DNA from: a virus
Strand: one strand, 5' to 3'
IMG/VR virus record: IMGVR_UViG_3300032516_005108
Span: 1 to 22,767 of that record
DNA length: 22,767 nucleotides
The notes beneath the pieces were generated by a model, which ran no database searches, had not been told where the DNA came from, and saw nothing but the letters and a program-made list of their open reading frames with translations. Of this stretch, positions 1,290-21,341 are shown piece by piece (within the stretch, counting starts at the first letter, position 1; each line of letters opens with the position of its first letter). Made by a program: the position numbers and the translations under genes.

Positions 1290-4200
1290 TTAGAACAACA
1301 ACGCCTGGCCCGGCGCCCTTTCCGGCATCGGCAACGGCCAGGTGGAGTTGCAGAAATGATCAAACGCCCAGAACCCGATCAGGGGAAGCCCCTCGTCGAT
1401 GGCCAGCAGGAGCTCCTTCCAGTACGGGCAGCCGGCATTCCAGTTCGGGATCAGGTAAGCCACGTCCGCCCGGTCCCAGGACCACCCCGGCTCGGTGTAG
1501 GCCCAGCGGATGGCCCGGCGGACCGCCTCTAGGTCGTGCGCGTACGCGCCGTAATTCAGCGCCTCCATCTTGAATCGGTCGAAGAGCCCGCCCGGCGTCT
1601 TGGCCTTGAACGACTCCGGGCAGTTGATGTGCATGTTCAACGGCCCGCCATGGCTCCCCGGAATCACCGCCGGGTCCTGATGGGTGTCCAACTGCCACAG
1701 CACCTCGAACTTCGACCCCGCGGTCTTGGCGACGCCGCGCACGTAGGCGATGATCTGCTTGGCGTGGTTGTCCAGGATCGCCCGCAAGAAGTCCGCGTCC
1801 TCCTGGTGAGCCGCCGGATCGTCGGTCGGGTACTTGAACCGGGCCAGTTCGCGGCCCAGCGCGATCAGCGCCTTCGCCCGAGTCTCCTCGTCGTAGAACG
1901 CCATTCCGCCCGCCGGTGAGAAGTACTTCCCGTCCCCCCGCTCGTACGCCGTCTCGGCGTAGTTCCCCTGCGGCCACCACAGGTGCTCGCCGAACTGGAT
2001 CCACGGCTCGAGCCCGGCGTCCACCATCAGCGCCGCCATCTCCTGCATGGCCTTGCCTTGATAGATTCGGACCGCATCCGTGAAGCAGCAGTGGTGACTT
2101 GACCATCCGGTCTTCACTCGCCGCCCATCGTAGTACCGGCTGATCCACACCCGGCCCGCTTCCGGATTGTCCGGCGAGTTCGTGAACTCCATCGAGAACG
2201 ACGGGCAGCAGGTTCTCCCCAGTGCCAGCAACTCCTTGAAGAGATCCGCGTGCCACGCCCGCGTCGCCGCATTCAGCACCGGTTGGACCGTGTCGTCGAT
2301 CTCCCATTTGCCGTCGATGTGCAGCTCGACTTGCCCGCCGGCTTCGTAGGCGTACGCCGGCGCCACGGATCCCACCAAGTTGAACGTCGTCTCCGCACAC
2401 CCGGTCAGCACCCAGAGGTTGTCGGCATTCGCCTGCTGACCCGTGGCGATCAGGGCATTCCCGCTGATGGTCACGACGTCGTCGTCGTGGTACGGATGTG
2501 GGCCGGTTGTGGTCACACGGATAATCCCCGGCCTCGACGGATCCGGCCGGCCGGGGTCGCACTCGGCCAGCTCGATCTGCATCGGCGTGTTGATGAACTT
2601 GAGGCTGCCCTCCGTCTCGGCCAGAATGTGGGTCCCGGTGACCTCGACCGTGGCTTCGAAGTTCCAGCCCGGGCTGAGGGGTCGGACCACGATCCACCCA
2701 CCGACATACTCCGCCCACACCGCCGTCAGGCTCGCGTTGATCGTGTAGACAAACTGCGCATTTACCACCGCGGTCGTGTCCCCCTGCTGGATCGTGCGCG
2801 AGATTATGACCGGGGTGGCCCCCCCGCCGAATTCCATGGTGATGATCTCACCTGGCGTCCATGCGCCGATCGGGCTCAGTCGGCAGCGCCAGGTCGGGAA
2901 GCAGCCGCCCACGCGCTTCCGCTGGTGCCAGTAGTTGATCCCGAGGTAGTGATCGAGGTCCCCTTTGAACCCCAGCCGCTCCGTCATCCACAGGAACCGC
3001 TGCGGCGTGATGCTCACCGTGTGTGGGGTGTCGTAGTCCGTGGCGGCGTACGTCAAGTTCCCCGGCTGGATCTGCTCGGTGGGGAACTCCGCCGGCGCCA
3101 CGCAATGCAAGTAGTCGAAGTAGAGGGCGTAACCCCCGGAGGCCGGATTCCGTTGCCCCGTGTTTGCTATCCTCACGGTGTGCTGCCCCGCCGGCACATC
3201 CTTCCACAGCAGCCGGGAGACATTCGCCGTCCACGGCCAGGCTTGGTACAGATCCACCTGGACCGGGGCCGCGCCGTCCAAAGTGGCCTCCAGGATGCCC
3301 CCAGTCGCCCCTACCCAGGTGCCTACGTAGATGTCGTGTTGGTGCTGGCAGTGCGTCTCGATCGTCACAGCGGCGCCGGCGATCCCCGTCCACCGCGCGC
3401 TGCCTTGGCTCATCCCGCCGAAGTCGGGATAGTCCTGCTGCCAGAAGCCGGTGTAGGTACACCAGCGGTCGAAGTCCTCGATCCAAACCGATCCGGGGCC
3501 CGGGCACTTCAACTCGCGTTTCCCGAGCCGGTCGGTCACCTGCCAGTTCGAGAACTGCGCACTCCATTCCTGTTGCTGATAGGCCGTCCGGTTCGGCCTC
3601 TTGGCGCAGAGGCTCAAGAACACTTGCCGGGCCTCGAGGATCCCCTCCGCGTCGAAGTCTATCTTGACGTGCCAGGTGACATCCGAGTTCCCGCCGGCGA
3701 ACTCCGCCACCGGCGTGGCCGACATGCTCGCATCGGTGGACGTCGTGTAAACTGTGAGCAGGTTGCCGTCATCGCCGCCGCGCGGCGCCACGTAGAGGTG
3801 CCTCCCGTCGCCCGCCTCGAAATCCACCGTGAGGTGGCTGTGGTCGATGACGTCCACCACCTGGCCCAGCGTCCCACCCAGGCGGATCTGATCACCCGCC
3901 GCCAAGCCGGTGAACCAGTTTGCATCGGAGAGTGCGACGTCGCGCCCAGTCACAATCACCGTGCCGTACCTGGCCGCGGTCAGCGTGATCTGGCCTCCGC
4001 TGGCATGCGCCAGCAACCCGAACGGGCAACCCATCAGGCGCCAGTCCACCGCGTTGACCTGGTCCGCCAGGGCTGTGGCGATCTGCGCCGCCGTCTCTCC
4101 GCCCTGCGTCGCGGTGAAGATGATCGGCAAGTTCTGATACCACAGGATCAGTTTCTTCCACTTGACGGCGCCGGTCGAGCTGATCATCACCGTCGCCGTC

Positions 4201-4595
4201 GCTGGCGTGAACGCCCCACTCACCGCCCGCGCGTTCTTGAATAGGGGAACCGTCCTCCGGCTGCCGTCCTGGGCGTCCACCACCAGGCTGTTCCAGTAGA
4301 GCCACTCGTAGAGCGGTGAGTCGATCGGCTGGCAATTCTGGAGCCGGACGTCGTACTCCAGGACCAGGCCCTCGAGGCTGTAGTCCGGCAGGTAGTAGAG
4401 GTACCGGGGATGCCCGAGCCCATCGTCCACGTCGTGCAGGCAAATGAAGCAGTAGTCCGCGTTGTCCCGGAAATTGCCCGCGGCTTTGAACCCGCTCGGC
4501 GAGGCCTCGAAGATCGTGCCCACCGCCCCTGGCCCGCCCAGTCCTCCGACGAACAACGTCCGGTCTGGCTGGAACTTGTAGACCTTCTCCCCCAT
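1290..4595 (-). CDS. large tail protein with jelly-roll, FCCH-like and C-terminal TIM-barrel hydrolase-like domains
   Basis: 1101 residues and modular. Residues 1-350 form a beta-rich N-terminal region likely to join the virion. Residues 370-500 look like a galactose-binding or CBM-type jelly roll (WIEDFDRWCTYTGFW at the start, AGQHTVRIANTG and YFDYLHC near the end). Residues 690-757 match the short beta module (TTTGPHPYHDDDVVTISG ... YEAGGQVE) seen in many phage tail proteins and related to E1-FCCH. Residues 780-1095 resemble the glycoside-hydrolase-like TIM barrel of GTA-type tail proteins. There, E870 in WIQFGE and E964 in SKFEVLW lie at strand ends where retaining hydrolases keep their acidic pair. 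The likely role is binding and degrading a host surface or cell-wall glycan during adsorption. Substrate and activity are inferred. The start is 3 bases after the fibre gene stop, with only a weak ribosome binding site. Confidence 0.72.
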   Translation of the reverse strand: MGEKVYKFQPDRTLFVGGLGGPGAVGTIFEASPSGFKAAGNFRDNADYCFICLHDVDDGLGHPRYLYYLPDYSLEGLVLEYDVRLQNCQPIDSPLYEWLYWNSLVVDAQDGSRRTVPLFKNARAVSGAFTPATATVMISSTGAVKWKKLILWYQNLPIIFTATQGGETAAQIATALADQVNAVDWRLMGCPFGLLAHASGGQITLTAARYGTVIVTGRDVALSDANWFTGLAAGDQIRLGGTLGQVVDVIDHSHLTVDFEAGDGRHLYVAPRGGDDGNLLTVYTTSTDASMSATPVAEFAGGNSDVTWHVKIDFDAEGILEARQVFLSLCAKRPNRTAYQQQEWSAQFSNWQVTDRLGKRELKCPGPGSVWIEDFDRWCTYTGFWQQDYPDFGGMSQGSARWTGIAGAAVTIETHCQHQHDIYVGTWVGATGGILEATLDGAAPVQVDLYQAWPWTANVSRLLWKDVPAGQHTVRIANTGQRNPASGGYALYFDYLHCVAPAEFPTEQIQPGNLTYAATDYDTPHTVSITPQRFLWMTERLGFKGDLDHYLGINYWHQRKRVGGCFPTWRCRLSPIGAWTPGEIITMEFGGGATPVIISRTIQQGDTTAVVNAQFVYTINASLTAVWAEYVGGWIVVRPLSPGWNFEATVEVTGTHILAETEGSLKFINTPMQIELAECDPGRPDPSRPGIIRVTTTGPHPYHDDDVVTISGNALIATGQQANADNLWVLTGCAETTFNLVGSVAPAYAYEAGGQVELHIDGKWEIDDTVQPVLNAATRAWHADLFKELLALGRTCCPSFSMEFTNSPDNPEAGRVWISRYYDGRRVKTGWSSHHCCFTDAVRIYQGKAMQEMAALMVDAGLEPWIQFGEHLWWPQGNYAETAYERGDGKYFSPAGGMAFYDEETRAKALIALGRELARFKYPTDDPAAHQEDADFLRAILDNHAKQIIAYVRGVAKTAGSKFEVLWQLDTHQDPAVIPGSHGGPLNMHINCPESFKAKTPGGLFDRFKMEALNYGAYAHDLEAVRRAIRWAYTEPGWSWDRADVAYLIPNWNAGCPYWKELLLAIDEGLPLIGFWAFDHFCNSTWPLPMPERAPGQALLF
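1311..2255 (-). other. glycoside-hydrolase-like TIM-barrel domain of the 1101-residue tail protein
   Basis: Residues 781-1095 of the large tail protein. Alternating helices and strands run from WHADLFKELL through AMQEMAALMVDAGLEPWIQFGEHLWW and KFEVLWQLDTHQD to LPLIGFWAFDHF. Candidate catalytic acids are E870 and E964. The block also holds two adjacent-cysteine pairs (796-797 and 836-837). Loss of either glutamate in relatives would argue for a binding-only barrel. Confidence 0.6.
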
Positions 4596-6100: not shown

Positions 6101-8941
6101 TCAAATGCCGTACCCAACCTCTGCGCTTTCCCAAATCTCCCCGGCGCTCCCGTCGAAGTACTCGCCAACCGGCCGCACTCGCACCCGCGCCGCGTACAGC
6201 CGGAAGGAGCCAAACGGACTCGACAGGTAGATCCGCCCCCGCCTGGCCTCGACCAGCGCGAAACTCACCAACACGGTCTTCCGGCCGCCGGTCGCGGCCA
6301 AGTTATCCGTCTTGCGCTGGGAAAGGTTCCCCCCCGGCACGTCGCCATAGAGTGACCAGGTCACCGGCGCCCCCGCGTCGATGTCGAACTCGAGACCGTC
6401 GATCTCCTTGACCTGATCCGTGCCGCAGTCGAACACTCCCGAATCCCAACTCCGCGCCAGGCGTGGCTCCGCCTCCGCGTGCAGGAAAATCCCGTAGATG
6501 ACGACCTCGGTCGTGACCTCGCCATCGAGGAACACCGCCGCGTTATACGCCCGGCGCCCCTTGCCCTCGTTGAGTTGGAAGATCGACGGTGTCCGGATCA
6601 GTGAGTTGATACTCCCGAGTGCCAGCTCCTCCGTCCCATCCGCGAACAGGAGTTTCACCGTGATGCTCGAGCCGCCGGTGTTGTGCTCGATCACCAGGTC
6701 CTCGTACAGCTTCTCGTTGTCCGGCAATCCCTGGTTGTGATACCCGCTCAGGTACCGCAAAGAGAGGGGTTGGCCGGCATCGGTGGTTCCAGACCCGAAG
6801 GCATATGCCCTGCCGCTCGCGCTGCCCGCGACCAGTTCGCCACTTTCGCCCTCCGAGTAGAGTGCGGTGAACCCGCGATCAAGCGCCGCCGCCGTTCGCA
6901 TGGACACCCACTGTTCGCTCTTCGGGTTGTAGACCACCGTAATCGTGGGCCACTGGTGGCCCTCTTCGGGATAAGACAAATACAACAAGTCGTTCGCGTA
7001 GGCCAACACAACGCGTGCACGATACTCCCGTTGCGAACTGATCGGGGGAATCACGATCTCATCCGCCAGGCGTGTGTGCGCCCCCTTGAAGATCGGATCC
7101 AGTTTGTCGGAGACCTTGCGCTCTTTGTCGAAGTCGAAGCTATAGACTCCCTGCGGCCCGGCGAAGTAGTCGAGCGAGCCGGCGTCCGCGACCGCTCCCG
7201 GCCCCAGGATGCCTATGTTGGCATTGGTCTGCTCGATCGTGGCGCCCTCATCGTCCGGATCCCCCAGCAATCGCCAGATCGTGCCTGCCTTGTAGAGAAT
7301 GGCCAGCCGCTTGTGAGTGGTGACGCGCAGGAGCCGCTCGCCATCGTCGCCGATCGGTTCGTGGCTGCCCTCCTCGGTACTCGATCCTGGCCAGCAGCTC
7401 GGCTGATTCACCTTCGTCCACCACAACCAATTCGGATGCACGTCCGACCCGTACGCCAGTAGCTTGCCGAAGTACGGCCCCGCCATCCCCATCGCCGGCG
7501 GCGGCGGATCCCGGTCCGTTTCGAGCATTTTGGCGTTGATCGCGTCCGCGTCCGGCAGCCGGTCCACGTAAGTCGTCGTGACGTTGTCGTTCAGTGTCCC
7601 CACGCGATAGGCCTCGCCCAGCGTGCCGCCGCCGCGGTAGATCTGCCGCTTGGTCACCTGAGGATCGGGACTGACCGGGATCCCGTTCAGAGTGACCGCC
7701 TGTTTATCCACGTGGATGGTCTCACTCGGTGGCCCGGCGTTCGTTTCGTGCCCCTCGGCAGTGTCGAAGCTGACCGCGTAGTAGACATCGCCTTCGATGG
7801 GCGCGTTCAGCCCGCCGTAGAATTGCCACTGGTCGAAGTTGACGTCGCACATGTCCGTGGCGATCACCTGGATCCGAATCGCCGCCACGGTGGACCAGTC
7901 CTTGCCGGCAGTGCTCCCCACCCGGCTGAAGGCCAGGGTCCCCTGGACCTCCTCGCCCAGCACCCGCAGACGCTCTCGAATGGCGTCCATGCGCTGCTGC
8001 TCCCAGCCGGCGCCGTATTCGTCGTAGACCTGCTGGGCGCGCTTCTCCAGGTCGGCCAACTCCTGTTGGAGCGCCGTGTACTCCGAATTGCCGGCGAGGG
8101 CGGCTTGAGCGTCGAAAGCTCGGCGAATCTCGACACAGGTCCAGCCCCAGCGCTGTTCGCTCAAGTGCGCCGGCGTGATGGTCACCCGGTAGTAGTCCCG
8201 GTCGAAGCTGGCATCGCCGCAGTCGATCACCAGGTCGATCTGAGCGATTTTGCTCGGGTCCGAGCAGTTGATCCAGATCCGGCACTTGTCGTCGGCGCGA
8301 TGCTCCCCGTCGATCCCCAGGTCCTTGCTGAGTAGTCGCTCGGCCTGCCAGGTGCCCGCCGGGTTAATCCCGATCCAGAGCGAACTCTCCCCCTCGACCT
8401 TGTTGTCCGTGTCCCAGGACGGGTCATACGGTACCCGGCTGGGGTTGAAGACAGTCCAGTATCCGCCCTCCTCGCTCTGGTTGAAACCCGTGATGACGAC
8501 CGTCTGCTGCGCTCCGGCGCTCACCGCCGGCGCCGTCGTGGGCGCCGCCGCCAACCACTCCGAGCAGGTGTTGCCGTCATCCTTCTTCTGCTTGTTCCGG
8601 TGCATGAACCAGGCGTAACCCTGGAACGAGGCGACGCCGATCGGCTGCCCGTCGTACCCAGAAGCCAGCAAGACAGGCGTCGCGCCGGCGCCGGTCTGCC
8701 GGTAGAGGTCCCCGCCGGAGCCGTAGTAACGCTGCTCGTCCCGCCTGAACAGGGTCCGGACAGCCCCACCTTCCGGGATCTCGACGACCTGGTAGCATCC
8801 CTGGCGCGATCGCAGCGCCCCGGCCTGATCGACGCGCCAATTCTCGATCCACAGCGCGTCCGGCGGTTGCACCAAGTCGCCCGGCGGCAGCAGGTTCCAG
8901 CTCCCGCTCAGGATGCGTTGCGGTTCGCCTTTATAGCTCAC
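6101..8941 (-). CDS. tail nozzle-like protein (gp12/gp10-type, beta-propeller) with inserted domains
   Basis: 946 residues from a GTG start overlapping the previous stop as GTGA. Residues 10-80 show the nozzle-type opening (DALWIENWRVDQAGALRSRQG ... YYGSGGDLYR). Residues 150-390 look like a jelly roll split by a long charged helix pair (about 278-335). Residues 388-465 resemble an FN3-like module ending RQIYRGGGTLGEAYRVGTL...TTTYVD. Residues 485-730 carry propeller-like blades (GKLLAYGSDVHPNWLWW, RLAILYKAGTIWRL, LDYFAGPQGVYSF, YNPKSEQWVSM). Residues 745-830 and 843-946 are two similar beta modules. Such proteins form the hexameric nozzle below the adaptor in short-tailed phages and hold the DNA in. 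At 946 residues it is longer than T7 gp12, owing to the inserts and C-terminal modules. Confidence 0.72.
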   Translation of the reverse strand: MSYKGEPQRILSGSWNLLPPGDLVQPPDALWIENWRVDQAGALRSRQGCYQVVEIPEGGAVRTLFRRDEQRYYGSGGDLYRQTGAGATPVLLASGYDGQPIGVASFQGYAWFMHRNKQKKDDGNTCSEWLAAAPTTAPAVSAGAQQTVVITGFNQSEEGGYWTVFNPSRVPYDPSWDTDNKVEGESSLWIGINPAGTWQAERLLSKDLGIDGEHRADDKCRIWINCSDPSKIAQIDLVIDCGDASFDRDYYRVTITPAHLSEQRWGWTCVEIRRAFDAQAALAGNSEYTALQQELADLEKRAQQVYDEYGAGWEQQRMDAIRERLRVLGEEVQGTLAFSRVGSTAGKDWSTVAAIRIQVIATDMCDVNFDQWQFYGGLNAPIEGDVYYAVSFDTAEGHETNAGPPSETIHVDKQAVTLNGIPVSPDPQVTKRQIYRGGGTLGEAYRVGTLNDNVTTTYVDRLPDADAINAKMLETDRDPPPPAMGMAGPYFGKLLAYGSDVHPNWLWWTKVNQPSCWPGSSTEEGSHEPIGDDGERLLRVTTHKRLAILYKAGTIWRLLGDPDDEGATIEQTNANIGILGPGAVADAGSLDYFAGPQGVYSFDFDKERKVSDKLDPIFKGAHTRLADEIVIPPISSQREYRARVVLAYANDLLYLSYPEEGHQWPTITVVYNPKSEQWVSMRTAAALDRGFTALYSEGESGELVAGSASGRAYAFGSGTTDAGQPLSLRYLSGYHNQGLPDNEKLYEDLVIEHNTGGSSITVKLLFADGTEELALGSINSLIRTPSIFQLNEGKGRRAYNAAVFLDGEVTTEVVIYGIFLHAEAEPRLARSWDSGVFDCGTDQVKEIDGLEFDIDAGAPVTWSLYGDVPGGNLSQRKTDNLAATGGRKTVLVSFALVEARRGRIYLSSPFGSFRLYAARVRVRPVGEYFDGSAGEIWESAEVGYGI

Positions 8942-9588
8942 TGAGCACTCCCCCAGTAAGAGCGGATGACTTCCTCCATCAGCGCCAAGCGCTCATCCAA
9001 GTGCGCAGCGACTTCGGGCATCGCTGCTTCCGATTCTTTCCGACGCGCTTCCGCCAGAATCCCGAAAGTGAAGTAGTCGGCCAGCACCAAGGGCGCGCTC
9101 AGCCAGCGGTTCTCCGGCGTGATCGTCGCTGGGTACCGATGAAAGATCAATGCCAACGTGCCCCCGGCTACGGGTTTCGGATACAGGCGCAGTTGAGTCA
9201 GTCCCAGTTCGCCGCGTGTGATTCGCTCCGGCGTCCGTGCCGTGGTTCGCCACGGGGTATCGAGCGCCTCCAGCTCCTCGACGGTGGCCTCCCGAAGCAG
9301 CGCCCCGCCCAGCGAGGCGTGGATCGTGGACAAGTGCCGCGCTGGCAGGTTGTACACCGCCGTGCCCGCCTCGACCGTCGTGCTCGCGTCCCGAACCACG
9401 AAGAGCCCGGTATTTCTCGCCAGCCGCTGAGCCACCTCGTCCGCGAACTGATACAGCTCCTGCTCGTCCCAGAACACCAGGTCCGCGTATGCCGACCCTC
9501 CCAGCGATGGGATCAGGTCCTCAATCACCCGGCCGACATCGAGGCCAGGGCTGACCGTGCCCTGGCAAAGGAGCAGCACCAGCAGCAT
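8938..9588 (-). CDS. connector/adaptor-like virion protein (third of three)
   Basis: 216 residues. The ATG is 3 bases after the preceding fibre-like gene, with GAGG eight bases upstream. The end overlaps the nozzle-like gene as GTGA, and adaptor next to nozzle is the usual order in podoviruses. The core shows a helix with W, D/E and a downstream Q/E-A motif (DLVFWDEQELYQFADEVAQRLARN, 36-59), then strands (AGTAVYNLPARHLSTIHASL) and a C-terminal helical stretch (APLVLADYFTFGILAEARRKESE). This is the layout of tail-adaptor (gp11/gp4-like) proteins. Oddly, the first 10 residues (MLLVLLLCQG) are strongly hydrophobic with no basic residue. They could be a short membrane-seeking segment, or the real start may be further in, though no better start is visible. 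Confidence 0.6.
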   Translation of the reverse strand: MLLVLLLCQGTVSPGLDVGRVIEDLIPSLGGSAYADLVFWDEQELYQFADEVAQRLARNTGLFVVRDASTTVEAGTAVYNLPARHLSTIHASLGGALLREATVEELEALDTPWRTTARTPERITRGELGLTQLRLYPKPVAGGTLALIFHRYPATITPENRWLSAPLVLADYFTFGILAEARRKESEAAMPEVAAHLDERLALMEEVIRSYWGSAQ

Positions 9589-9591
9589 GGC

Positions 9592-11154
9592 TCAGACCTC
9601 GTAACCCTCCAGAGTGACGTCACCCGCTGCGGTGGCCCCGGTCGAGTACCGCAGAATGTTGTTGACCGCCCCAGAGGGGCACAAGTGCGGGAACGGAATC
9701 ACGATCGTGCTCAGCGGCGGCATCCCCTGGTAGATCATGTTGGCTGCGGCGTCCGTGTTGTCGAAAATCTTCAGCAGGGCGCCCGCCGCGGTCGGCGTGA
9801 TGATCATGTGCGTGATTACCCAGCGCTTGCCGCCCGCCGGCGTCCAGACGGCGGTTGCCGTCTCGAGAGCGCCGTAGGTGAACGCCTTGCGGACTCGGGT
9901 TCGCCCGAGCGGCGCGTACTCGGTCGGCGCCGGATTCGAGTCGCTGAACGCCGCCCCAGCCTCGTCCACCACCCCGACCTTCTGCACACCCGCCGCTGCG
10001 GTGACCACAGCGTCTCCGCCGACCTGCTTCAGGTTCTCGTTCCAGGGCGTCGCGTTGGCCGTGCCCTGATTCGCCGTCACAGTCCCCGACACCGGCACCG
10101 CGCTCTGATCGCTGGCGATCACCACCGGCGTCGATGACGCCATCACCTTCTGGCCCAGGGTGTTCACTCGCGCCTGGAAGCCGGCCTCGGTCAAGAGCGT
10201 CCCCACCGTCCCGATATTCGCGGTCACCGTGCCGCTCACCGGCTGCGTCGTGCTGCCGGTCGGATCCACGCGCACCGGCGCCCCTGCCGTCCCGATCTCT
10301 GTCCCCGCCACGTTCCGCAGGTTGACGTGGATCGCCCGTTTCGCCGTGATCCGCGCCGCCGCCGCCTGGTCTTCGGTCGGATCGCTCGAGATGGCCTCGT
10401 TGTAGACCCCGCCGATCACCTCGAATTTGCCGGTGCCCTCGACAAACGCCGCTTTGTCGGTCTGCGCCGAGCTGCCGACCGCCTGCACTATGTCCACCTT
10501 CAGCGCCTTGGCGGCGCCGACTGTCGAGATCCCCACCGTGTCGGTGCCATCGCTCAGCTTCACCGGCCAGGCGTTCGCCACCACGGCGGCCGTGCCCTGA
10601 TTCGCGGTCACTGTGCCCGAGACGGGGTGAGTCACTCCACTGCCGTCCACCGCCAGCCGGCCGCTTACCAGCGCCGGCGGGAGTTGGGCCGCCACAGGCG
10701 CGTCGTAGAACGCCGCGCCAGTGCTGAGACGCACGGCGTGAGGTGTGGCGAACGCGACGTGCTCTTGGGCCGCGCCAGTCGGCAACGGCAGAGTCGCAGC
10801 GCTCACCGGCTGGGTATCGCTCGGCGTGGTGGCCTTGTAGAATGCCGACCCGTCGGTCAACCGGGCGGCATGGGGCGTGGCAGCCGCCACGTGCTCCTGC
10901 GCCGGCGCCGCCGGGATCTTGTCCGTCCCGGTCTTGATCGCCGCCACGGTCGCCTCGGTGGCCGCGCCGCTGGGAAGGTTAGATCGGGTGATTTCCACGG
11001 CCAGGCCGTAAGTCGCGTCCGCGGGGACCAGCGTCTCGTCGCCGTCGGCGCTGACCGCCAGCTTCACCACCTGCATGTGCGCGCCGGAGACGGAACCTAC
11101 ATCCGTCTTCGCCAGCGCGCCTACCCCTGGCGTGATTGCGAGGTTGTCAGGCAT
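9592..11154 (-). CDS. fibre-like virion protein with PVSGTVTAN repeats
   Basis: 520 residues from an ATG with AAGGAG four bases upstream; it overlaps the previous gene by 8 bases. Low-complexity A/T/V/G-rich shaft. The phage-fibre motif PVSGTVTAN(Q/I)GT occurs three times (near 177, 305 and 354), and EHVAxATPHAxRLxxGxAFY occurs twice (87-106 and 131-150). Residues 416-520 form a distinct C-terminal beta domain (KAFTYGALETATAVWTPAGGKRWVITHM ... ending VTLEGYEV), likely the tip or trimerising head. Proteins of this type in phage structural clusters are annotated as tail fibres or virion proteins. Attachment point and receptor are unknown. Lying between two adaptor-like genes suggests it is mounted near the head-tail junction. 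Confidence 0.65.
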   Translation of the reverse strand: MPDNLAITPGVGALAKTDVGSVSGAHMQVVKLAVSADGDETLVPADATYGLAVEITRSNLPSGAATEATVAAIKTGTDKIPAAPAQEHVAAATPHAARLTDGSAFYKATTPSDTQPVSAATLPLPTGAAQEHVAFATPHAVRLSTGAAFYDAPVAAQLPPALVSGRLAVDGSGVTHPVSGTVTANQGTAAVVANAWPVKLSDGTDTVGISTVGAAKALKVDIVQAVGSSAQTDKAAFVEGTGKFEVIGGVYNEAISSDPTEDQAAAARITAKRAIHVNLRNVAGTEIGTAGAPVRVDPTGSTTQPVSGTVTANIGTVGTLLTEAGFQARVNTLGQKVMASSTPVVIASDQSAVPVSGTVTANQGTANATPWNENLKQVGGDAVVTAAAGVQKVGVVDEAGAAFSDSNPAPTEYAPLGRTRVRKAFTYGALETATAVWTPAGGKRWVITHMIITPTAAGALLKIFDNTDAAANMIYQGMPPLSTIVIPFPHLCPSGAVNNILRYSTGATAAGDVTLEGYEV

Positions 11155-11898: not shown

Positions 11899-12780
11899 TT
11901 AGCGCCTCCGGCTGCCTCGGGCGGCCGCCTCCCGGAAGTGCCGCGTAAACCGATCCGCCATCTTGATCCGCACCGGCCCTTTCCGCCGGGCGTCTGCCAG
12001 CGCCATGCCGGCGACCAGTTTGTCGAACCGGGCCTCGGAGAACTGCGCCCCGACGTAGTCCTCCCGATGCGCCAGAATGTTCGCCCACACGCCGGCGACC
12101 AGCGCCGCCGGCCTCAGCCAGGGCAGCAGAGTCGCCGACGTCGTGCCCGCGGAGAGCGCCGCCTGGTCCGCCACGTAGGTAATGGGCAAACCCTTGGCAG
12201 CGTCTGGGATCGGGTACAGCTCCACCTGCATCCGAGGCGGATCGCTCGTGTCGTCCATGTAGGGCGCCCAAATCGCCGGGTTGCCCGTGGCCGGCCGGTT
12301 CGGGAAGCTCGCATCGAGCTGGCTCCGGCTGAACCGCCCCAACCCGCCGGGCGGATCCAGGCTCCGGACGTCCTCCAGAATCCGGCAATCCGCTGGCAAC
12401 GGATAGACGCTCTGGAAGATCGCGTACCCCGCCGCGGCATCAGTACTGCCCTCGTACGGCCGGTCCAGCGTCCCCGTGGTGTCGCCCGTCCGCGTGAACT
12501 CGTAGTACTCGTTCCGGCCAGTCACCCGAAACCCGCGGCCCGTCATCCCCGCAGTCCACACCGTGGCCGTCCCCGTCACTCCGGTGCTGCCCTCGGTCAC
12601 CGCCACCGTGCCTGTCTCGTACGGCGCCACGGTCTCAAGCACGCTCTCGATCTTCAACCGCTCCCACTGGAGCCGGTCCAGGATCTCCGCGTACCGCCCG
12701 TCAATCCAAGCATCGAGTAAGTCCGGATCAACCCCTGGCGCCGACTTGGTGAGCACTAACCTGAGTTGCCCGTAAGTCAC
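11899..12780 (-). CDS. tail adaptor-like protein (gp11/gp4-type) with inserted beta domain
   Basis: 293 residues from a GTG start overlapping the previous stop as GTGA. The N-terminus (LRLVLTKSAPGVDPDLLDAW, then DGRYAEILDRLQWERL) is the adaptor-type helix pair with a conserved W. Residues 54-130 form a small beta domain (TGTVAVTEGSTGVTGTATVW ... LDRPYEGST ... VYPLPADCR) that recurs in phage connector proteins. The remainder returns to strands and helices (MQVELYPIPDAAKGLPITYV, then LPWLRPAALVAGVWANILAHRED), ending in a basic tail (FREAAARGSRRR). It probably sits between portal and nozzle and seals the packaged DNA. Assignment rests on fold-level pattern and position. Confidence 0.65.
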   Translation of the reverse strand: MTYGQLRLVLTKSAPGVDPDLLDAWIDGRYAEILDRLQWERLKIESVLETVAPYETGTVAVTEGSTGVTGTATVWTAGMTGRGFRVTGRNEYYEFTRTGDTTGTLDRPYEGSTDAAAGYAIFQSVYPLPADCRILEDVRSLDPPGGLGRFSRSQLDASFPNRPATGNPAIWAPYMDDTSDPPRMQVELYPIPDAAKGLPITYVADQAALSAGTTSATLLPWLRPAALVAGVWANILAHREDYVGAQFSEARFDKLVAGMALADARRKGPVRIKMADRFTRHFREAAARGSRRR

Positions 12781-12998
12781 TTGAACACCTTCCCTCCGGG
12801 CGGTGCCCCTGGCCGAAACAGGTCCGTGGCTCCAGCCCCTTCCCCGTAGCGCAGCAGATCGCCCGTGCCGGTGATGAGCGCCCGGAAAATGCGGTGCGCC
12901 GATTCCGGCGGCGCTGGAGCGCCCACACTCAGCCCATGCGTCGCCAGGTAGTGGACCCCTCCGAACCCGATCCCCCAGGCCAGCAAGGCGCTGATCAT
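12777..12998 (-). CDS. small protein with one hydrophobic N-terminal segment
   Basis: 73 residues, coupled at both ends (ATGA with the gene before, GTGA with the gene after), which argues that it is a real gene. Residues 2-20 are hydrophobic and glycine-rich (ISALLAWGIGFGGVHYLAT) and could span or touch a membrane. The rest is polar, with G/P-rich stretches. It has no positively charged N-terminal residue, so it is not a classic signal peptide. It could be a small virion component or a membrane protein acting at infection or lysis; nothing in the sequence decides between these. No family recognised. Confidence 0.6.
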   Translation of the reverse strand: MISALLAWGIGFGGVHYLATHGLSVGAPAPPESAHRIFRALITGTGDLLRYGEGAGATDLFRPGAPPGGKVFK

Positions 12999-13567
12999 GT
13001 CGCCCTCACCCGCGACGTCGGGGCCACCGCGTCATCCATCGTGAAGGTCATCGCCTCCGTGCTGCCATCCAACTTCTTGGCGCTGATCGTGAGCCCGGCG
13101 ATCCCGAACTGCGCCAGTGCGGCCCAGATCATGTATTGCATCTGTCCCCAGGTCGGCACCGCGCCGTCCGCCGCGTAGCTCTCCTCGGGCAGCGTGCGCG
13201 CCCCGTGCGCGTCCGCCACCGCGTTGCGCTCCCCAGCGGTCAGCGTCATCGCTGCCCCTGGCGCCGCCGCAGCCTTCGCAGCATCGTAAGCCGCCGTCAA
13301 CGCCCCGACCGGCGCCTCCACCACCTGGTCGCACATGTCCAGATCGTCCGCGCCCGCGGCCGTGAAGTGGTACGCCAGTTCTCCGAGCGTCTCGGTGTCA
13401 ATCACCGTGAGCAGCACCTTGTACCAGCCCGAGCCGATCTCACTCACCGCGCCAGCCGCCGCGCCAAACGCCGCCCCAGCCTTCGAGATCGTCACTACCG
13501 GCGAAAGGCCCGTCGCCCCGAGGCAGAACGGACGTGGATATACCGTGCTCTGCGCAATCAGGCTCAT
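12995..13567 (-). CDS. beta-rich virion protein of unknown function
   Basis: 190 residues; ATG start overlaps the previous stop (ATGA). Residues 10-80 carry a pattern met in phage structural clusters: FCLGATGLSPVVTISKAG, then EIGSGWYKVLLTVIDTETLGELAYHFTAAGAD. This is an Ig-like beta domain. A central helix region (ALTAAYDAAKAAAAPGAAMTLT) and a further short beta region (GLTISAKKLDGSTEAMTF) follow. It lies between the export-signal fibre-like protein and the small hydrophobic protein, immediately upstream of the adaptor set. It is likely a minor virion or fibre-base subunit. Function unknown. Confidence 0.6.
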   Translation of the reverse strand: MSLIAQSTVYPRPFCLGATGLSPVVTISKAGAAFGAAAGAVSEIGSGWYKVLLTVIDTETLGELAYHFTAAGADDLDMCDQVVEAPVGALTAAYDAAKAAAAPGAAMTLTAGERNAVADAHGARTLPEESYAADGAVPTWGQMQYMIWAALAQFGIAGLTISAKKLDGSTEAMTFTMDDAVAPTSRVRAT

Positions 13568-14658
13568 TGGACTGTGAAAAAGCCTCCGCCCCCGACGTAG
13601 ATCGCATCCAACAGCAACGCCACCGCTGGCCGACTCGCCCGGTCTGTCGTCCCCCCTGAGCCTTTGGTCACTTGGTAGATGCCGTCGCCGTACTCCGCCA
13701 TGACTGCCATACGCGCCTGAGAGGTGAAGGCCATTCGAGCGGCCGTGATGTTGTTGACGTTCTCGGCCCGCATGGTCACGTCGTACTGGCTCCCCCGGGT
13801 GATGACGACCGGGGTTAGTAGAGGCATGGTGAAGCGGGCGACGCTGGCCGATGTCTCTGCGCAGTTGTACACAGCCGTCGCGCCGATCTCAGTACCGGTC
13901 GAATTGTAGATCCTGCCACTATAGGCGCTGCCAGCGGTGCACGCGAGCCCTGGGAGCCAGTAGATGGCGGCGACCCTGCCGGTGTAGGCCGAACTCCCGA
14001 TGCGGATGCCGTACTCGGTCTGCGTCGAGCCGGAGTTGTAGTTCGTGGCGGTGGCCGCGTACCCGTCCGCGAACCCAGGGTGGCAGAGCGGGTACTCGAC
14101 TCCGCCTACGGTGATCGAGGCCCAGTTTGCGAAGCCGCTCTTACTTCCCCACGCTCCGGCATCCTTGGTGATCCTGTACCCCCAATAGACGTAGTGCGCT
14201 ATGTTTGCCCCGTACGCGATCTGGAGATTGCCTGCCGTGCCGGTGAACTGGACCACCAGGGCGACCAGATCCCCCTTGGTCGCCCCGAACGCGGTGAAGG
14301 CTTCCGAGTACTCCGTCGCAGACGTGACTGCGGCACGGGTGGTGGTCGCGTTGGCATGGTACGGAGTCCCGGTTGGCTGCCCCGTACCGCTGTCCACAGT
14401 CTCTAGCTGAATCGTCAGCGACTGCGACGAGGTGACGGTCCCAGTGCGCCAGCCGACGCCAGTGACGTTGCCCGTGGCGGGCATGTGAAACACCATCGCG
14501 CACACGTCATTCGCCGCGACCTCGTTCAGGGTGCAGGTGACGAGCGTGGAGTTCTGCCCGTAGATGGTGGGATAGCTCAGGTAGGCCCGGGAAATCTCCA
14601 GCAACTGGCCCACCAACGACCCCACGAACAAGAGACAGATCAGAAACCGCGTCATCAT
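13564..14658 (-). CDS. tail-associated beta-sandwich protein with N-terminal signal peptide
   Basis: 364 residues from the ATG at 14658, chosen because GGAGG lies five bases upstream and the start overlaps the previous stop as ATGA; longer readings only shadow the neighbour. Residues 1-18 (MMTRFLICLLFVGSLVGQ) have the layout of a Sec signal peptide: a basic residue, a hydrophobic core, then a small-residue end. The mature part holds two similar beta-sandwich halves, with NVTGVGWRTGTVTSSQSLTI and YHANATTTRAAVTSATEY in the first. The second has EYGIRIGSSAYTGRVAAIYW, SGRIYNSTGTEI, RGSQYDVTMRAE and RPAVALLLDAIYVGGGG. Such two-lobed proteins occur beside fibre genes in environmental phages. A role in host attachment is plausible but not shown. 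The export signal is unusual for a virion protein. Confidence 0.62.
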   Translation of the reverse strand: MMTRFLICLLFVGSLVGQLLEISRAYLSYPTIYGQNSTLVTCTLNEVAANDVCAMVFHMPATGNVTGVGWRTGTVTSSQSLTIQLETVDSGTGQPTGTPYHANATTTRAAVTSATEYSEAFTAFGATKGDLVALVVQFTGTAGNLQIAYGANIAHYVYWGYRITKDAGAWGSKSGFANWASITVGGVEYPLCHPGFADGYAATATNYNSGSTQTEYGIRIGSSAYTGRVAAIYWLPGLACTAGSAYSGRIYNSTGTEIGATAVYNCAETSASVARFTMPLLTPVVITRGSQYDVTMRAENVNNITAARMAFTSQARMAVMAEYGDGIYQVTKGSGGTTDRASRPAVALLLDAIYVGGGGFFTVQ

Positions 14659-16205
14659 TGTGTCCTCCGTGTCTTGAACTGCACCCAGATCAGCTCCGCG
14701 GCGGCCGCCAAGGTGTCCCCGGCGTCCGTGGCGTCGCGCAGGACCTTGAACAGCAGCGTCTCCCCCGCCGCGCACCCCGTCGTCGTCAGGCCGGTCAATT
14801 GCGCCACATCGTTCCACTGCAACGTGGTCCCTTTCGCGGTATCCGCCGTGAACGCTTGCGCCGCGTTCCACGCCGGATCTCCGGTCTCGCCATCGGCCAC
14901 GCAAGCGGTCCGGATCTGCCACACCACGTCACCCGCAATGGCCGAGGTCCGCCAGGTCGCGTTCACGTCGATAGCGCCCGTCCAGGCGCTCACCAGCGGG
15001 AACCGCCCCTGGATGGACTGCGCCGCCCCAGCGCCGTTCTCGGCGAATGCCAACGTCCCGTAGACGCTGTTACTCCCCTCCACGCAGGTAGCGCTCGGGT
15101 AATTCGTCGAGCCAAGCGCGAACGCCGTCGAAGCCACCCCCATCTGGCAGGTCGCGGTCAGATACCCCAGATGTTGCACGGTAGTGATGTTGTTCCCCGT
15201 CCCCTCCACGTCGAGCGTCTTGTTGGTCAGCGTGTCCGTGCTTGATTCGGTGTGGCTCCCGCCACCCGCCGCCGTGCAACTCTCCACCGCGCCGGAAGCA
15301 TCCACCCCCAGCGGATAGTAGCCGGCCGAGCAATTCGCTCCGTTCGCCGCCAACGCCGTGGCCGTCGCAGCATTTCCGGTGGTGCTCTGATTCAACGTCG
15401 GGAAGTCGCCCGCCACGGCGATACTGAGTATTCCCGTCGTCGTCGTGTTTTTGAGAATGCCCGTCGCCAGCGCCGACAACGCCTGCTCGGCGGAGAGCGT
15501 CGCGTCGGGAGTCTGCGTGATGTAGGTCGCGTCCGTCGGCGCCCCCCCGCCGCCTCCACCTCCCCCCGGGGTGTCGGCTCGCACCCACGCTGCCAAGGCC
15601 GTGTTGTAGGCCAGCAGCAGCGACCCGCGGGGGACGATGGTGACGTTGCTGCCACCCAGCCGCAAGTTGGAGTTGGCCAGGAAGCTTTCGTCCTGAAGGG
15701 TCACGGAGTAGCTGGCGCTGTTGTTCGAGATCACCAGCAACTGCCCGTCCACCCCGTCCGCAATGGTGGGCGCGGAGGTGAGGGTGTAATCGGCGTCGGG
15801 CGCGATGCGCACATTCAGGGCGTCCGCCGCGATCGCGTCCGTCGCCGCGTCGATGGTCTGCACGGCGGAGGGTATCAGGTTGAGGAAAGCGGTCCAAGTA
15901 GCAGCGCTTCCGTCCGTCTTGAGGATCTTGCCGCCGTGCCCGCTTTGGTTCGGCAGCGCGCACAGCGCCGCGATGGCCTCAGAAACAGCGTCGGTCCAGG
16001 TGTTGGTAGCCGTGCAGTAGAGGTACACCCCGGCCGCCGGACAGCCCGCCCCGTTGCACAGGTAGACGCTGCGGTTCGCGGTGCAGGTGGCCGGCAGATC
16101 AGCCAGCGGTCCCACGGCAACGGTCCGCCAACGCGGGTCCCGCTGGACGAACACCTGGCCCTGCAACGCCCCGGCCAGTGCCGCCAGCGCCAGCCACTTC
16201 CTCAT
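14655..16205 (-). CDS. fibre-like protein with signal peptide, Cys-rich head and poly-Gly hinge
   Basis: 516 residues from an ATG with AGGAGG six bases upstream. Residues 1-17 (MRKWLALAALAGALQGQ) look like a Sec signal peptide. Residues 41-82 contain five cysteines (41, 50, 55, 64, 82), more in keeping with an oxidising compartment than the cytoplasm. Residues 105-210 are beta-rich and end at a hinge of eight consecutive glycines (214-221). Residues 270-340 carry fibre-type motifs (TTGNAATATALAANGANCSAG, then TDTLTNKTLDVEGTGNNITT). The last 120 residues form a beta domain ending LIWVQFKTRRTQ, of a type seen at fibre tips. This is probably a receptor-binding or decorating fibre. It could instead be an exported, phage-encoded surface protein of the infected cell. 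Confidence 0.62.
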   Translation of the reverse strand: MRKWLALAALAGALQGQVFVQRDPRWRTVAVGPLADLPATCTANRSVYLCNGAGCPAAGVYLYCTATNTWTDAVSEAIAALCALPNQSGHGGKILKTDGSAATWTAFLNLIPSAVQTIDAATDAIAADALNVRIAPDADYTLTSAPTIADGVDGQLLVISNNSASYSVTLQDESFLANSNLRLGGSNVTIVPRGSLLLAYNTALAAWVRADTPGGGGGGGGAPTDATYITQTPDATLSAEQALSALATGILKNTTTTGILSIAVAGDFPTLNQSTTGNAATATALAANGANCSAGYYPLGVDASGAVESCTAAGGGSHTESSTDTLTNKTLDVEGTGNNITTVQHLGYLTATCQMGVASTAFALGSTNYPSATCVEGSNSVYGTLAFAENGAGAAQSIQGRFPLVSAWTGAIDVNATWRTSAIAGDVVWQIRTACVADGETGDPAWNAAQAFTADTAKGTTLQWNDVAQLTGLTTTGCAAGETLLFKVLRDATDAGDTLAAAAELIWVQFKTRRTQ

Positions 16206-16274
16206 CGAGCGCCTCCTAGCGGCCTTCCACCGTGATCGAGTACGCGATGCCCCTCACGCCGGAGTGCCGGCGGT

Positions 16275-16910
16275 CTAGATGATCGCGATCTCTTCCCAGG
16301 CCATGTAGCCGGAAATGACGTGGGTGGTCCCGACCGCGTGCGCCGACACCACCAGAGCCGCGCCGGGCGGCACAACGATGAGTCCACCGACGTCTTCGTC
16401 GATGCTGTAGACTCCGGCGCCGGCTGCCACAGCCGCCAACCCTCCCAGTGGCCGCAGCATCACCGCTACCACGGTTTGGGCGACAACTTGCGCGTTCAGC
16501 GTCCGAGTGACCGATCCGGCCGCCAGCAGGGTGAGGAGGCTCGTCGGCACCCCTCCGATTCCAGCCACGATCCCGGAAGGAGCCGCGATGTAGTCGAGAT
16601 AGAACGGCCCGCCGGGCGTTCCCGAGACCGTCGCAATCCCGATCTTCAGCACCACCAGGTTCTTGCCGGACGTCACGGGGTTGAAGACCCCCAGCAAGGA
16701 ACGGCCCGTGCTTGCGGGCAGCGGAGAAATGTCCGTCGTCGCCGTCACGGTCGCCGACTTCACCGCTGTGATGAAGCACATTCCCCGCAGGACGGCCTCC
16801 GTGTATCGGCCGTGTGCGTCGGTGACGACCTGAGCTCCGGTCTTGTCGCCGCGCAGAAAAGTCAAGTTACCGTCCGCAATCGCCTGCGGTCCAATTCGCA
16901 TGTCAAGCAT
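16275..16910 (-). CDS. small beta-rich virion protein
   Basis: 211 residues from the ATG at 16910, chosen for AAGGAG ten bases upstream; the frame continues upstream only as a shadow of the neighbour. An internal ATG at 16901 is a second possible start. The sequence has the pattern of a virion protein family common downstream of coat genes: GNLTFLRGDKTGAQVVTDAH near the start, then FITAVKSATVTATT, LGVFNPVTSGKNLVVLKIGI and TVSGTPGGPFYLDYIA. The second half is V/A/G-rich and strand-forming, ending MAWEEIAII. It could be a head decoration or minor tail subunit. The following 69-base gap to the fibre-like gene holds only a short G/C hairpin and no gene. Confidence 0.65.
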   Translation of the reverse strand: MLDMRIGPQAIADGNLTFLRGDKTGAQVVTDAHGRYTEAVLRGMCFITAVKSATVTATTDISPLPASTGRSLLGVFNPVTSGKNLVVLKIGIATVSGTPGGPFYLDYIAAPSGIVAGIGGVPTSLLTLLAAGSVTRTLNAQVVAQTVVAVMLRPLGGLAAVAAGAGVYSIDEDVGGLIVVPPGAALVVSAHAVGTTHVISGYMAWEEIAII

Positions 16911-16945
16911 CTGAGATGTTCTCCTTCCTCTTGGTCGATTTGCCT

Positions 16946-17335
16946 TTAGTCGTCGTCCACTTCGCAACCGAGCGAGTAGGTGTAGCTCGAGCCGTCCCCG
17001 TGCTTCACCAGAACGTCCCACCGGCCGGGTAGCCAATCGTTCATGCGCTCCAGGATGCAACCGAACGGCTCGGGCAACGGCCCGGGCCGCATTTCGTACA
17101 CGTACAGCCCCGTCTGGGTCGCCGCCGCCACTCCCCCGGTGCTCATCTCGAAGGTCTTGGCGGACGCCGGATCGTATCCGCGAATGACCGGCCGCAGACC
17201 ACCCGATCCACTCGCCGCCGTGACACTGAGATACAGGCGGACGCGCATGCTCCGCCTGTCGGCCTGGGCGGGGCTGGCGGTATCCGCCAGCCGCGCGCCG
17301 CTGGCCAGTAAAAGTCGACATCCCTTGAGCGCCAT
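16946..17335 (-). CDS. small virion protein of unknown function
   Basis: 129 residues from an ATG preceded by the strong site TAGGAGGAGC. The N-terminal 30 residues are A/R/L-rich. The core (SMRVRLYLSVTAASGSGGLR, then VIRGYDPASAKTFEM and GLYVYEMRPGPLPEP) is strand-forming, and the C-terminus ends with an acidic run (EVDDD). The phrase RVRLYLSVTAASG...LRPVIRGYDPAS resembles small structural proteins found beside coat genes in phages. It probably decorates the head or forms part of the neck. No catalytic or membrane features. It lies between two other small beta-rich virion genes in the same direction. Confidence 0.6.
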   Translation of the reverse strand: MALKGCRLLLASGARLADTASPAQADRRSMRVRLYLSVTAASGSGGLRPVIRGYDPASAKTFEMSTGGVAAATQTGLYVYEMRPGPLPEPFGCILERMNDWLPGRWDVLVKHGDGSSYTYSLGCEVDDD

Positions 17336-17390
17336 TTGCTCCTCCTACGCGGTTTGGCCGCAGCCTCTCCTGTAGAGTCCGGGCCCGGCG

Positions 17391-17819
17391 CTACGGAATG
17401 CGCGTCAGACTGACCCGCACCGTCACGCCGTCCAGAGTCGTCAGCGTGCCGGTCGGAACCACGCCCAAGGCGTCGCCGATGGCCAGTTGCAGGTTCGCCG
17501 CAGTGCCGTGGAGCGTGCCGGCCTGATTCGTGTCGGCGGTTGCCTTCAAATTGATCCCGCTGGCCAGGACGTCCGTTCCCGCTGCCTTCGCTGTGCCCGA
17601 CGGGACCTTCTTGACCATCAGGGTTACGGCGCCGGCGTCGTTTCCGGCCACCGCATGCCGCTCGACCACCGCGGTCACCTGGTAGGGCGCGTCCGCGATG
17701 AAGAACAGGCCATCGTAGTCCCCCGCCGCCGCACCCGCTAGCGTGTTGAACACGGCCAATTGCGTCTTCGGCACGACCGCAATCGTGCCCTCGATCTGTG
17801 TGACTCCTCTCGTCGCCAC
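17391..17819 (-). CDS. small beta-sandwich virion protein
   Basis: 142 residues from a GTG start with AGAGGTG about six bases upstream. The pattern AVVERHAVAGNDAGAVTLMV, then SGINLKATADTNQAGTLHGT, ANLQLAIGDALGVVPTGTL and GVTVRVSLTRIP belongs to a small all-beta protein type that recurs in phage structural modules just after the coat gene. A decoration or head-fibre role is likely but unproven. It is the first gene after the strong hairpin that follows the coat gene, so it may be expressed at a different level from the head genes. A 55-base gap with a CCGGGCCCGG palindrome separates it from the next gene. Confidence 0.65.
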   Translation of the reverse strand: MATRGVTQIEGTIAVVPKTQLAVFNTLAGAAAGDYDGLFFIADAPYQVTAVVERHAVAGNDAGAVTLMVKKVPSGTAKAAGTDVLASGINLKATADTNQAGTLHGTAANLQLAIGDALGVVPTGTLTTLDGVTVRVSLTRIP

Positions 17820-17892: not shown

Positions 17893-18822
17893 TTACCCCC
17901 CCGGCGTCCCGTACACCCCGTAGAAGCTCGACCAGCCGCTCGACTGGCGATACCACATCGCGGTCTTGATCGAGCGGGAGTCGAAGTCCACTTCGTGCAC
18001 TGTGTTGGGCTTCTCGCGCCAGTAGAACCGGAGCTCGGTGTCCTCCGGCTCCGCTTGGACGAACCAGGCCCTCGGATCGGACAAGTAGTCCCACACGAAG
18101 GCGTCTTCGAACCCGGCCATCCCGGACCGGTTCTGGAACGCGTTGATCGCCCGGTTGGGCGTGTCGCTGCGCGTCGGGCTCTTCAGGATCTCCGCCGCCG
18201 CGAATTCCAGTTCCGGCGGAATGATCAGTCTCCGCGGCCGCACCCGGACTTTCTTCCCGGAGGGGTCTTTCATCCTCCGGAAATCCGTCAGCGTGATCTC
18301 GATCGAGCCGATGTCCAGGTCCGCCGGCGTGGTCAAGCAGTTTTGCTGGACTAGCCCGCTCTTCACCATCGGATGCGAGAGGCTGAAAAGCGGCTGGCCG
18401 TCCGGGCCCGCGTAGGCGCCCCCGGTGAAGCCGTTGTTGAAATGAGAGGCGACGGCCAGCTCGACCGTCTCCTTGGCGCTCCTACCGAGCTCGCTGGCCA
18501 GCTTCTGGATGATGGCGAACCGGTCGTCATCGACCATGACTCGCGTCATCCGGAAGCCGAGGCCATACTGCTCGTGGAGATAGGTCTTGTCAAATCCGGG
18601 CACTGCGCTGTCGTAGTGCATCGGGCCGCCCTCCGGGATTTGAACAAAAGTGCCCAGGCCGGCGATCTCGCTGGTCTGCTCGATCGACTTGCCGGAGCCC
18701 ATCACCCGGAAAACCTGGGTGTACTGTGGCGGGAAGCGGTCGTAGCGCTGGAAGATCACCTCGTCCAGCGCCGGCAGCATGGATGCCAGGAAGAGGTCGG
18801 GGAATTGTGCTCGTATTAACAT
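17893..18822 (-). CDS. major capsid protein (HK97-fold type)
   Basis: 309 residues from an ATG with AGGAGG ten bases upstream; the site overlaps the stop of the cement gene, so the two are probably coupled. Coat-type landmarks appear in order: an N-terminal segment, GSGKSIEQTSEIAGLGTFVQ (42-61), YGLGFRMTRVMVDDDRF (86-102), a spine helix (103-128), DGQPLFSLSHP (141-151), and RRLIIPPELEFAAAEILKS (197-215), the strand-PP-helix of the A domain. The closing part is VWDYLSDPRAWFV...ELRFYWREKP. It assembles the icosahedral shell on the scaffold. No long N-terminal delta domain and no protease gene are visible, as in T7/P22-like phages. It resembles the coat group often annotated as Mu gpT-like. Confidence 0.88.
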   Translation of the reverse strand: MLIRAQFPDLFLASMLPALDEVIFQRYDRFPPQYTQVFRVMGSGKSIEQTSEIAGLGTFVQIPEGGPMHYDSAVPGFDKTYLHEQYGLGFRMTRVMVDDDRFAIIQKLASELGRSAKETVELAVASHFNNGFTGGAYAGPDGQPLFSLSHPMVKSGLVQQNCLTTPADLDIGSIEITLTDFRRMKDPSGKKVRVRPRRLIIPPELEFAAAEILKSPTRSDTPNRAINAFQNRSGMAGFEDAFVWDYLSDPRAWFVQAEPEDTELRFYWREKPNTVHEVDFDSRSIKTAMWYRQSSGWSSFYGVYGTPGG

Positions 18823-20996: not shown

Positions 20997-21341
20997 CTAC
21001 AATCGCTGCGCGGCGCCGTAGGGCGTCGCGCGATACAGATCCAGCCGCTTGCGTTCGTACTCGTCCGAGCACGCCCCGCACAGCAGCTGGTAGATCCCGT
21101 CCTTCGGCTGCACGAACATCCTCACGTTCTCCCCGGCGGTCTCACGCCGCAGGTCCTCCCAGTTTCGCCGGCACGGTCCCTGGCACCCCGGCGGCGCACA
21201 CCCGGCCAACACACTCAGAGCTGCGCGGTGCCAGTAGTAGCAGTCCCAGCACGGCGCCACCGCCGGCGGCCCGACAAATTCCCGCGGGTCCCGCCACTTC
21301 GAGCAGAATCGGCATCGCACCCGCGGCCGTAGAATAGGCAT
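20997..21341 (-). CDS. cysteine-rich zinc-type small protein
   Basis: 114 residues from an ATG with only a short AAGG just before it. Cysteines are arranged as C10-x2-C13, C31-x2-C34, C48-x4-C53-x3-C57 and C88-x2-C91. The first two pairs (RCRFCSKW, CWDCYYW) look like one zinc site; the last pair (LCGACSDEYER) could join the middle group in a second. No catalytic residues recognised. The C-terminal third is helical and basic. Its stop overlaps the scaffold gene's ribosome binding site, so the two are coupled. It may bind nucleic acid or act as a small assembly or regulatory factor; neither can be shown here. Confidence 0.6.
   Translation of the reverse strand: MPILRPRVRCRFCSKWRDPREFVGPPAVAPCWDCYYWHRAALSVLAGCAPPGCQGPCRRNWEDLRRETAGENVRMFVQPKDGIYQLLCGACSDEYERKRLDLYRATPYGAAQRL

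Follow-up and report, generated by a model that had tools for sequence, protein, structure and literature searches.

Sec-type signal peptides on fibre-like proteins in a tailed-phage head-tail operon suggest fibre export to the periplasm

Filamentous phages build their virions in the membrane, without lysis, from coat proteins that use Sec signals and form disulfides in the periplasm. T5 Llp, a superinfection-exclusion lipoprotein, has been described in a structural study (PMC9586334), and in work on diversity-generating retroelements signal peptides have been tied to cellular targets and not to those of phages (PMC6199706, PMC8144416). In the literature searched, where subscription papers are thinly covered, we found no description of signal peptides on tailed-phage fibres. 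The locus presented here suggests, from its sequence, export of fibres to the periplasm, which is not normally expected of tailed-phage parts.

The window, meaning the whole stretch of DNA analysed, is a complete IMG/VR record of 22,767 bases; it is probably a genome fragment, and all its main genes lie on the minus strand. Two neighbouring genes, P0001 and P0002, occupy a fibre slot between capsid and tail genes. A downward arrow marks predicted cleavage sites, and SP stands for signal peptide.

17893..18822 (-): major capsid protein (phrog_371, PF10124, PF25209), on the head side of the fibre slot
16275..17819 (-): three small head-side genes from capsid to slot (17391-17819, 16946-17335, 16275-16907)
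16212..16217 (-): Shine-Dalgarno AGGAGG, 6 nt ahead of the P0001 ATG
14655..16205 (-): P0001, 516-aa fibre-like protein, an ORF with an N-terminal Sec signal
16155..16205 (-): predicted P0001 signal peptide MRKWLALAALAGALQG↓Q, alternative site AGA↓LQ (sequence and rule)
P0001 residues ~340-516: C-terminal beta domain with four conserved cysteines (C353, C374, C435, C478)
14664..14668 (-): Shine-Dalgarno GGAGG, 5 nt ahead of the P0002 start codon
13564..14658 (-): P0002, 364-aa beta-rich protein, an ORF with an N-terminal Sec signal; its start and the P0001 stop overlap as ATGA
14608..14658 (-): predicted P0002 signal peptide MMTRFLICLLFVGSLVG↓QLLE (rule and comparison with L004)
12995..13567 (-): 190-aa protein without SP, its start overlapping the P0002 stop by 4 nt; same operon
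12777..12998 (-): 73-aa protein with a single hydrophobic segment at its N-terminus and a 4-nt overlap with both neighbours
11899..12780 (-): 293-aa tail protein (phrog_2712, phrog_24607), closing the slot on the tail side
9592..11154 (-): 520-aa fibre-like protein without SP, with one cysteine; an internal contrast in the same genome

Every junction from P0001 to the 293-aa tail protein, which is conserved in the related loci L004 and L010, is a 4-nt overlap, so P0001 and P0002 belong to a coupled head-tail operon. The preliminary description had placed the two proteins inside the virion block, and this position holds. It had also reported neighbouring ORFs of 516 and 364 residues with Sec-type N-termini, on which ORFs, Shine-Dalgarno sequences and signal-peptide rule all agree. 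Its interval, 14605-16205, covers P0001 and only the signal of P0002, which extends to 13564. Elsewhere in the window, a 1101-aa protein (1290-4595, minus strand) matches PF23845, 'Non-contractile tail sheath protein TIM barrel', at 5.7e-16, a match unexpected alongside podovirus-like head and tail genes. A tail-type protein (8938-9588, minus strand) starts with MLLVLLLCQGTVSPG, which is hydrophobic and has no positive residue, and this start is nearly the same in L004 and L010. A 114-aa protein (20997-21341, minus strand), kept in L006, L008 and L010, has nine cysteines with several CxxC pairs and, judged by that pattern, is probably zinc-binding.

Signal peptides were called in all surveys with a home-made rule (K/R, an uncharged hydrophobic core, small residues at -3/-1 and no hydrophobic continuation), and start sites came from our own gene caller. 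Applied to 26 window genes, the rule matched P0001 and P0002 strongly, the capsid protein weakly and no others. In comparison phage loci it flags about 2.5-4% of genes, so two adjacent strong matches are unlikely by chance. Both N-termini, MRKWLALAALAGALQGQ and MMTRFLICLLFVGSLVGQ, combine a positive n-region with an uncharged hydrophobic core, with core mean KD values of 2.22 and 3.09 under the rule. The -3/-1 residues of the P0002 site, LVG↓Q, are acceptable; neither P0001 candidate, LQG↓Q or AGA↓L, is ideal, and many homologues have AxA sites. Signal peptidase I would most likely cut the P0002 and P0001 signals at G↓Q. Sequence inspection found no lipobox in P0001 or P0002: the first cysteine of P0001 is C41, and the cysteine in the P0002 signal sits inside the hydrophobic core, not at +1. 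The cluster of five cysteines within 42 residues noted earlier in P0001 is present (C41, C50, C55, C64, C82). Both proteins have odd cysteine counts, 11 for P0001, all in its mature part, and 5 for P0002. A wrong start codon as the source of the signals was rejected on the basis of the strong Shine-Dalgarno sequences and recurrence in relatives. That both window proteins carry real Sec-type export signals, with their function under selection, is well supported at the sequence level.

No Pfam or PHROG family matched full-length P0001 or P0002. Residues 243-274 of P0001 share 84% identity with a protein annotated as a tail fibre, and no such match was found for P0002. AlphaFold gave poor models, with mean pLDDT of 37.6 for P0001 and 41.5 for P0002. 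Foldseek searches with these models likened P0002 to cupins and CBM-like proteins and P0001 to collagen- or C1q-like viral proteins, matches that are suggestive at best.

Close relatives show how the fibre slot changes. In L002, a P0001 relative at 96% has an identical signal peptide. The L004 relative of P0002 is 86% identical overall, yet its signal is rewritten, MRRILTRLPAGITAFLLAGPLLG↓QL versus MMTRFLICLLFVGSLVG↓QL: only 7 of 17 signal residues are identical, against 308 of 347 (89%) in the mature part, with the break at G↓QL. Such a break would fit a cleaved signal, and a recombination point would look alike. The capsid proteins of L008 and L010 are 73-80% identical to that of the window, and their slots hold unrelated fibres that also have signal peptides: MIRRLSFLGLLGALCFGQ in L008, and MKDTILAVLAFVSVLGAQ in L010, where three further SP-bearing genes follow. 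The signal peptide at the slot thus appears conserved as a function, not as a sequence. No SP-bearing fibre turned up in the parts inspected of more distant capsid relatives, about 30% identical, which come from isolates and from complete phage records (Caulobacter RW, Roseobacter CRP-901, Planktothrix Pag-Yong1 and others). L005, a phage of another type with a tape-measure-like gene, encodes at 2-655 a close relative (87-89%) of the P0002 C-terminal half, which marks P0002 as a mobile module.

A survey with the fibre module of P0001 (residues 236-339) recovered 28 genome and 26 viral loci. Of the viral fibres whose N-terminus could be read, nine were SP-plus and 16 SP-minus. The gene after the fibre was SP-bearing in 7 of 8 cases for SP-plus fibres versus 0 of 14 for SP-minus fibres (Fisher 5e-5), so signal peptides come as cassettes. 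One locus, L058, has five SP genes consecutively, and its second cassette gene, used as a query, found only itself. L069 has three SP genes behind GroES, scaffold and capsid genes, the capsid being confirmed, and in L115 the layout recurs as capsid, three SP genes, virion protein. Among the partners in these cassettes are GDSL esterases, a carboxylesterase, a lactonase-like propeller, a G8/CEMIP beta-helix and a chitobiase C-terminal domain. The GDSL esterase at L003 5467-6720, adjoining an SP fibre, has a twin-arginine-like signal (TRRGVIGG); the Tat pathway may therefore carry a phage fibre partner. The module also occurs in signal-bearing proteins of Patescibacteria-type bins (L022, L025, L029, L038, L040, L043, L044), which are perhaps surface adhesins. 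In the SP-bearing protein at L110 634-1815, the phrog_26190 profile would begin near residue 20, which is where cleavage is predicted; this may be one more grafted signal.

Another cassette protein, L099 2671-4290, carries the fibre domain NEFYTHGSFPAPGSPATSAGMRAELDLISAGFDKLP directly after its signal. A search with this domain gave 20 viral loci. Twelve of the 20 genes are SP-minus and start two codons before the motif (MTNSYYNHG..., MSNPYYDH...). The other eight (seven distinct) have a 20-25-residue signal ahead that ends at the motif, with the junctions AQA↓NDF, AWA↓NDF, AWA↓SNDF, AWA↓ANDF, YSA↓NQF and AYG↓NEF. The rule placed cleavage 0-2 residues from the motif in 6 of 7 SP-plus genes, choosing an earlier site in L118. 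On a tree of the fibre domain, the signal must have been gained or lost at least twice. All 18 loci compared have the same head-closure gene upstream of the fibre, separated from it in L118 by a small ORF; between SP-plus and SP-minus loci, most pairs of its products share ~50-56% identity. An orthologous head-closure gene in E. coli phage PTXU04 and in Vibrio phage 1.232.O is followed by a fibre-like gene without a signal, annotated in PTXU04 as partly similar to tail fibre. Because both kinds of gene follow an orthologous head-closure gene, the SP-plus genes of this family count as positional orthologues of ordinary fibre genes. Additionally, the SP-plus fibre of L120 has a C-terminal Phage Tail Collar domain (1.4e-20). 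For P0001 and P0002, this positional argument for a fibre role would apply by analogy.

These genes also bear on the expectation that homologues without the N-terminal segment would count against an export signal. Such homologues exist within a related fibre family. They show a modular signal, gained or lost ahead of a tail fibre that is ordinary in other respects, and the signal itself is not refuted.

Searching with a profile of the P0001 C-terminal domain (residues about 340-516) brought up another 24 viral loci, with cassette relatives of up to 2174 aa. Among readable N-termini, 19 of 22 were SP-plus. L107 and L112 are SP-minus and identical in the genes compared, and L094, an ambiguous case, has a long leader ending in a signal-like stretch, AHA↓QSF. 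Each of the cysteines C353, C374, C435 and C478 is present in 24 of 26 aligned proteins, and the losses are paired: L003 is without exactly the equivalents of C353 and C374, and L117 without exactly those of C435 and C478. All four are missing from L107, the only clear SP-minus member. The simplest reading of the alignment, in which one SP-minus lineage figures, would be two disulfides if the protein is exported and none if it is not.

Cysteine parity points in the same direction. With P values that are optimistic, as the contigs are related, an even count was found in 18 of 19 whole mature SP-plus C-terminal-domain proteins (P=4e-5, L105 being taken as SP-plus via an alternative start), and across all surveyed loci SP-plus proteins split 57 even to 11 odd (P=6e-9) versus 101 even to 83 odd for SP-minus proteins (P=0.10; Fisher 1.7e-5 between the two). 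Most cassette protein bodies therefore look disulfide-paired, as in an oxidising compartment; the two window proteins themselves have odd counts. Cysteine content is a less general marker. SP-plus proteins were significantly enriched in the fibre-module survey (p=0.014), no difference between SP-plus and SP-minus proteins appeared in the N-terminal-domain family (p=0.61), and L049 and L060 have SP fibres with no cysteines at all. Enrichment is thereby weakened as a general marker, and pairing and parity are the better tests.

Host information comes from bacterial genome contigs. An Edaphobacter MAG contig, L037, whose binning may be wrong, carries a P0001-type SP fibre. When 396 genomes of a single phylum were searched with P0001 and the capsid protein, few matches emerged, among them L089. 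This contig, of the same phylum as L037 (Acidobacteriota by the title of L037, where binning may be wrong), has a P0001-type SP fibre too. Its prophage-like region has five SP-type genes in a row beside lysis-type genes, the first SP being called by eye.

The best explanation, to which we assign a probability of roughly 0.6, is that the fibres are exported through Sec, gain disulfides in most cassette proteins and join virions at lysis. Export is well supported; incorporation into virions is what we infer. P0001- and P0002-type proteins would be made late, from the same operon as head and tail proteins, and the host Sec machinery would move the cassette proteins through the inner membrane. Signal peptidase I would remove the signal, and the mature chains would fold in the oxidising periplasm, where most cassette proteins would form disulfide bonds. 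Once the holin breaks the inner membrane, cytoplasmic virions may meet the waiting fibres, which may attach to the short tail during lysis together with exported esterases and beta-helix or carbohydrate-binding partners. We know of no precedent for post-lysis attachment of tail fibres in tailed phages. Taken further, many uncultivated tailed phages of diderm bacteria may build two-compartment particles joined only when the holin opens the inner membrane, a proposal on which we would lay even odds. Capsid and tail core would then be cytoplasmic, with fibres and surface enzymes periplasmic and disulfide-bearing.

The proteins might instead be exported without ever joining the virion, serving in receptor masking (from within or on debris, which would spare progeny), in superinfection exclusion or in loosening capsule or polysaccharide before lysis. 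This is possible but clearly less probable. The enzyme-like or carbohydrate-binding cassette partners would suit it, T5 Llp shows a phage lipoprotein acting in superinfection exclusion (PMC9586334), and one more fibre-like gene in the window genome, at 9592-11154, lacks an SP. Against it, the SP-plus gene behind the head-closure protein is a positional orthologue of an ordinary tail fibre in the N-terminal-domain family, the L120 fibre has its collar domain, and the proteins have large fibre bodies without lipobox rather than being small lipoproteins. The preliminary description had offered surface proteins of the infected cell, periplasmically matured fibres and membrane-entering virion proteins as options; the second is now favoured, since SP function is kept, the cleavage-site junction is visible and paired or even cysteines follow the signal.

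Membrane entry, in which an uncleaved hydrophobic N-terminus would anchor or insert a virion protein, is now disfavoured and unlikely. The hydrophobic segments are real and some -3/-1 residues, including those of P0001, are imperfect, yet conservation drops sharply at the predicted cleavage site between P0002 and L004, SP-minus homologues begin where the mature chain would begin, and paired and even cysteines imply that the body, not the N-terminus alone, reaches an oxidising compartment. A shade less likely still is that these are passenger bacterial surface-protein genes without a role in the phage particle. The fibre module does occur in SP-bearing bacterial-genome proteins, for example on Bacteroidota and Patescibacteria contigs; however, the window genes sit in a translationally coupled head-tail operon, SP genes stand beside capsid and tail genes in L115 and L069, and positional orthology ties such genes to ordinary fibres. 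All contigs are metagenomic and gene starts are predicted, so wrong start codons or mis-binned bacterial DNA could in principle create apparent signals. Such an artefact is very improbable given the strong Shine-Dalgarno sequences in the window, the trait's presence in dozens of contigs, several with adjoining virion genes, and a cysteine covariation whose pairing is independent of start calls.

If fibres do mature in the periplasm, one of the common parts of a virion could be produced outside the cytoplasm, and the route by which fibres gain disulfide bonds would be explained. Such maturation would also break the working rule that a signal peptide means a cellular and not a phage protein, and therefore annotation may mistake such fibres for host surface proteins or overlook them as determinants of host range.

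Compared with known systems, the cassettes resemble the tail fibres and tailspikes of short-tailed Caudoviricetes such as PTXU04 and 1.232.O in gene position, fibre modules and N-terminal fibre domain, and the collar domain of L120 is a further likeness. T5 Llp and similar superinfection-exclusion lipoproteins share with the window proteins passage of a phage protein through Sec during infection, which for the window is predicted; Llp is a small lipoprotein, whereas the window proteins are large (516 and 364 aa), without lipobox and part of virion-operon cassettes. Bacterial adhesins and secreted targets of diversity-generating retroelements likewise join a signal peptide to a fibre or lectin-like body, but the retroelement signals are linked to cellular targets and the cassette signals sit in phage head-tail operons. 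Filamentous phages differ by assembling in the membrane, while the cassette phages are tailed, with cytoplasmic capsids. Known short-tailed fibres open directly with the fibre domain, and their folding is presumed to be cytoplasmic, whereas the cassette proteins have a Sec signal and, mostly, paired cysteines.
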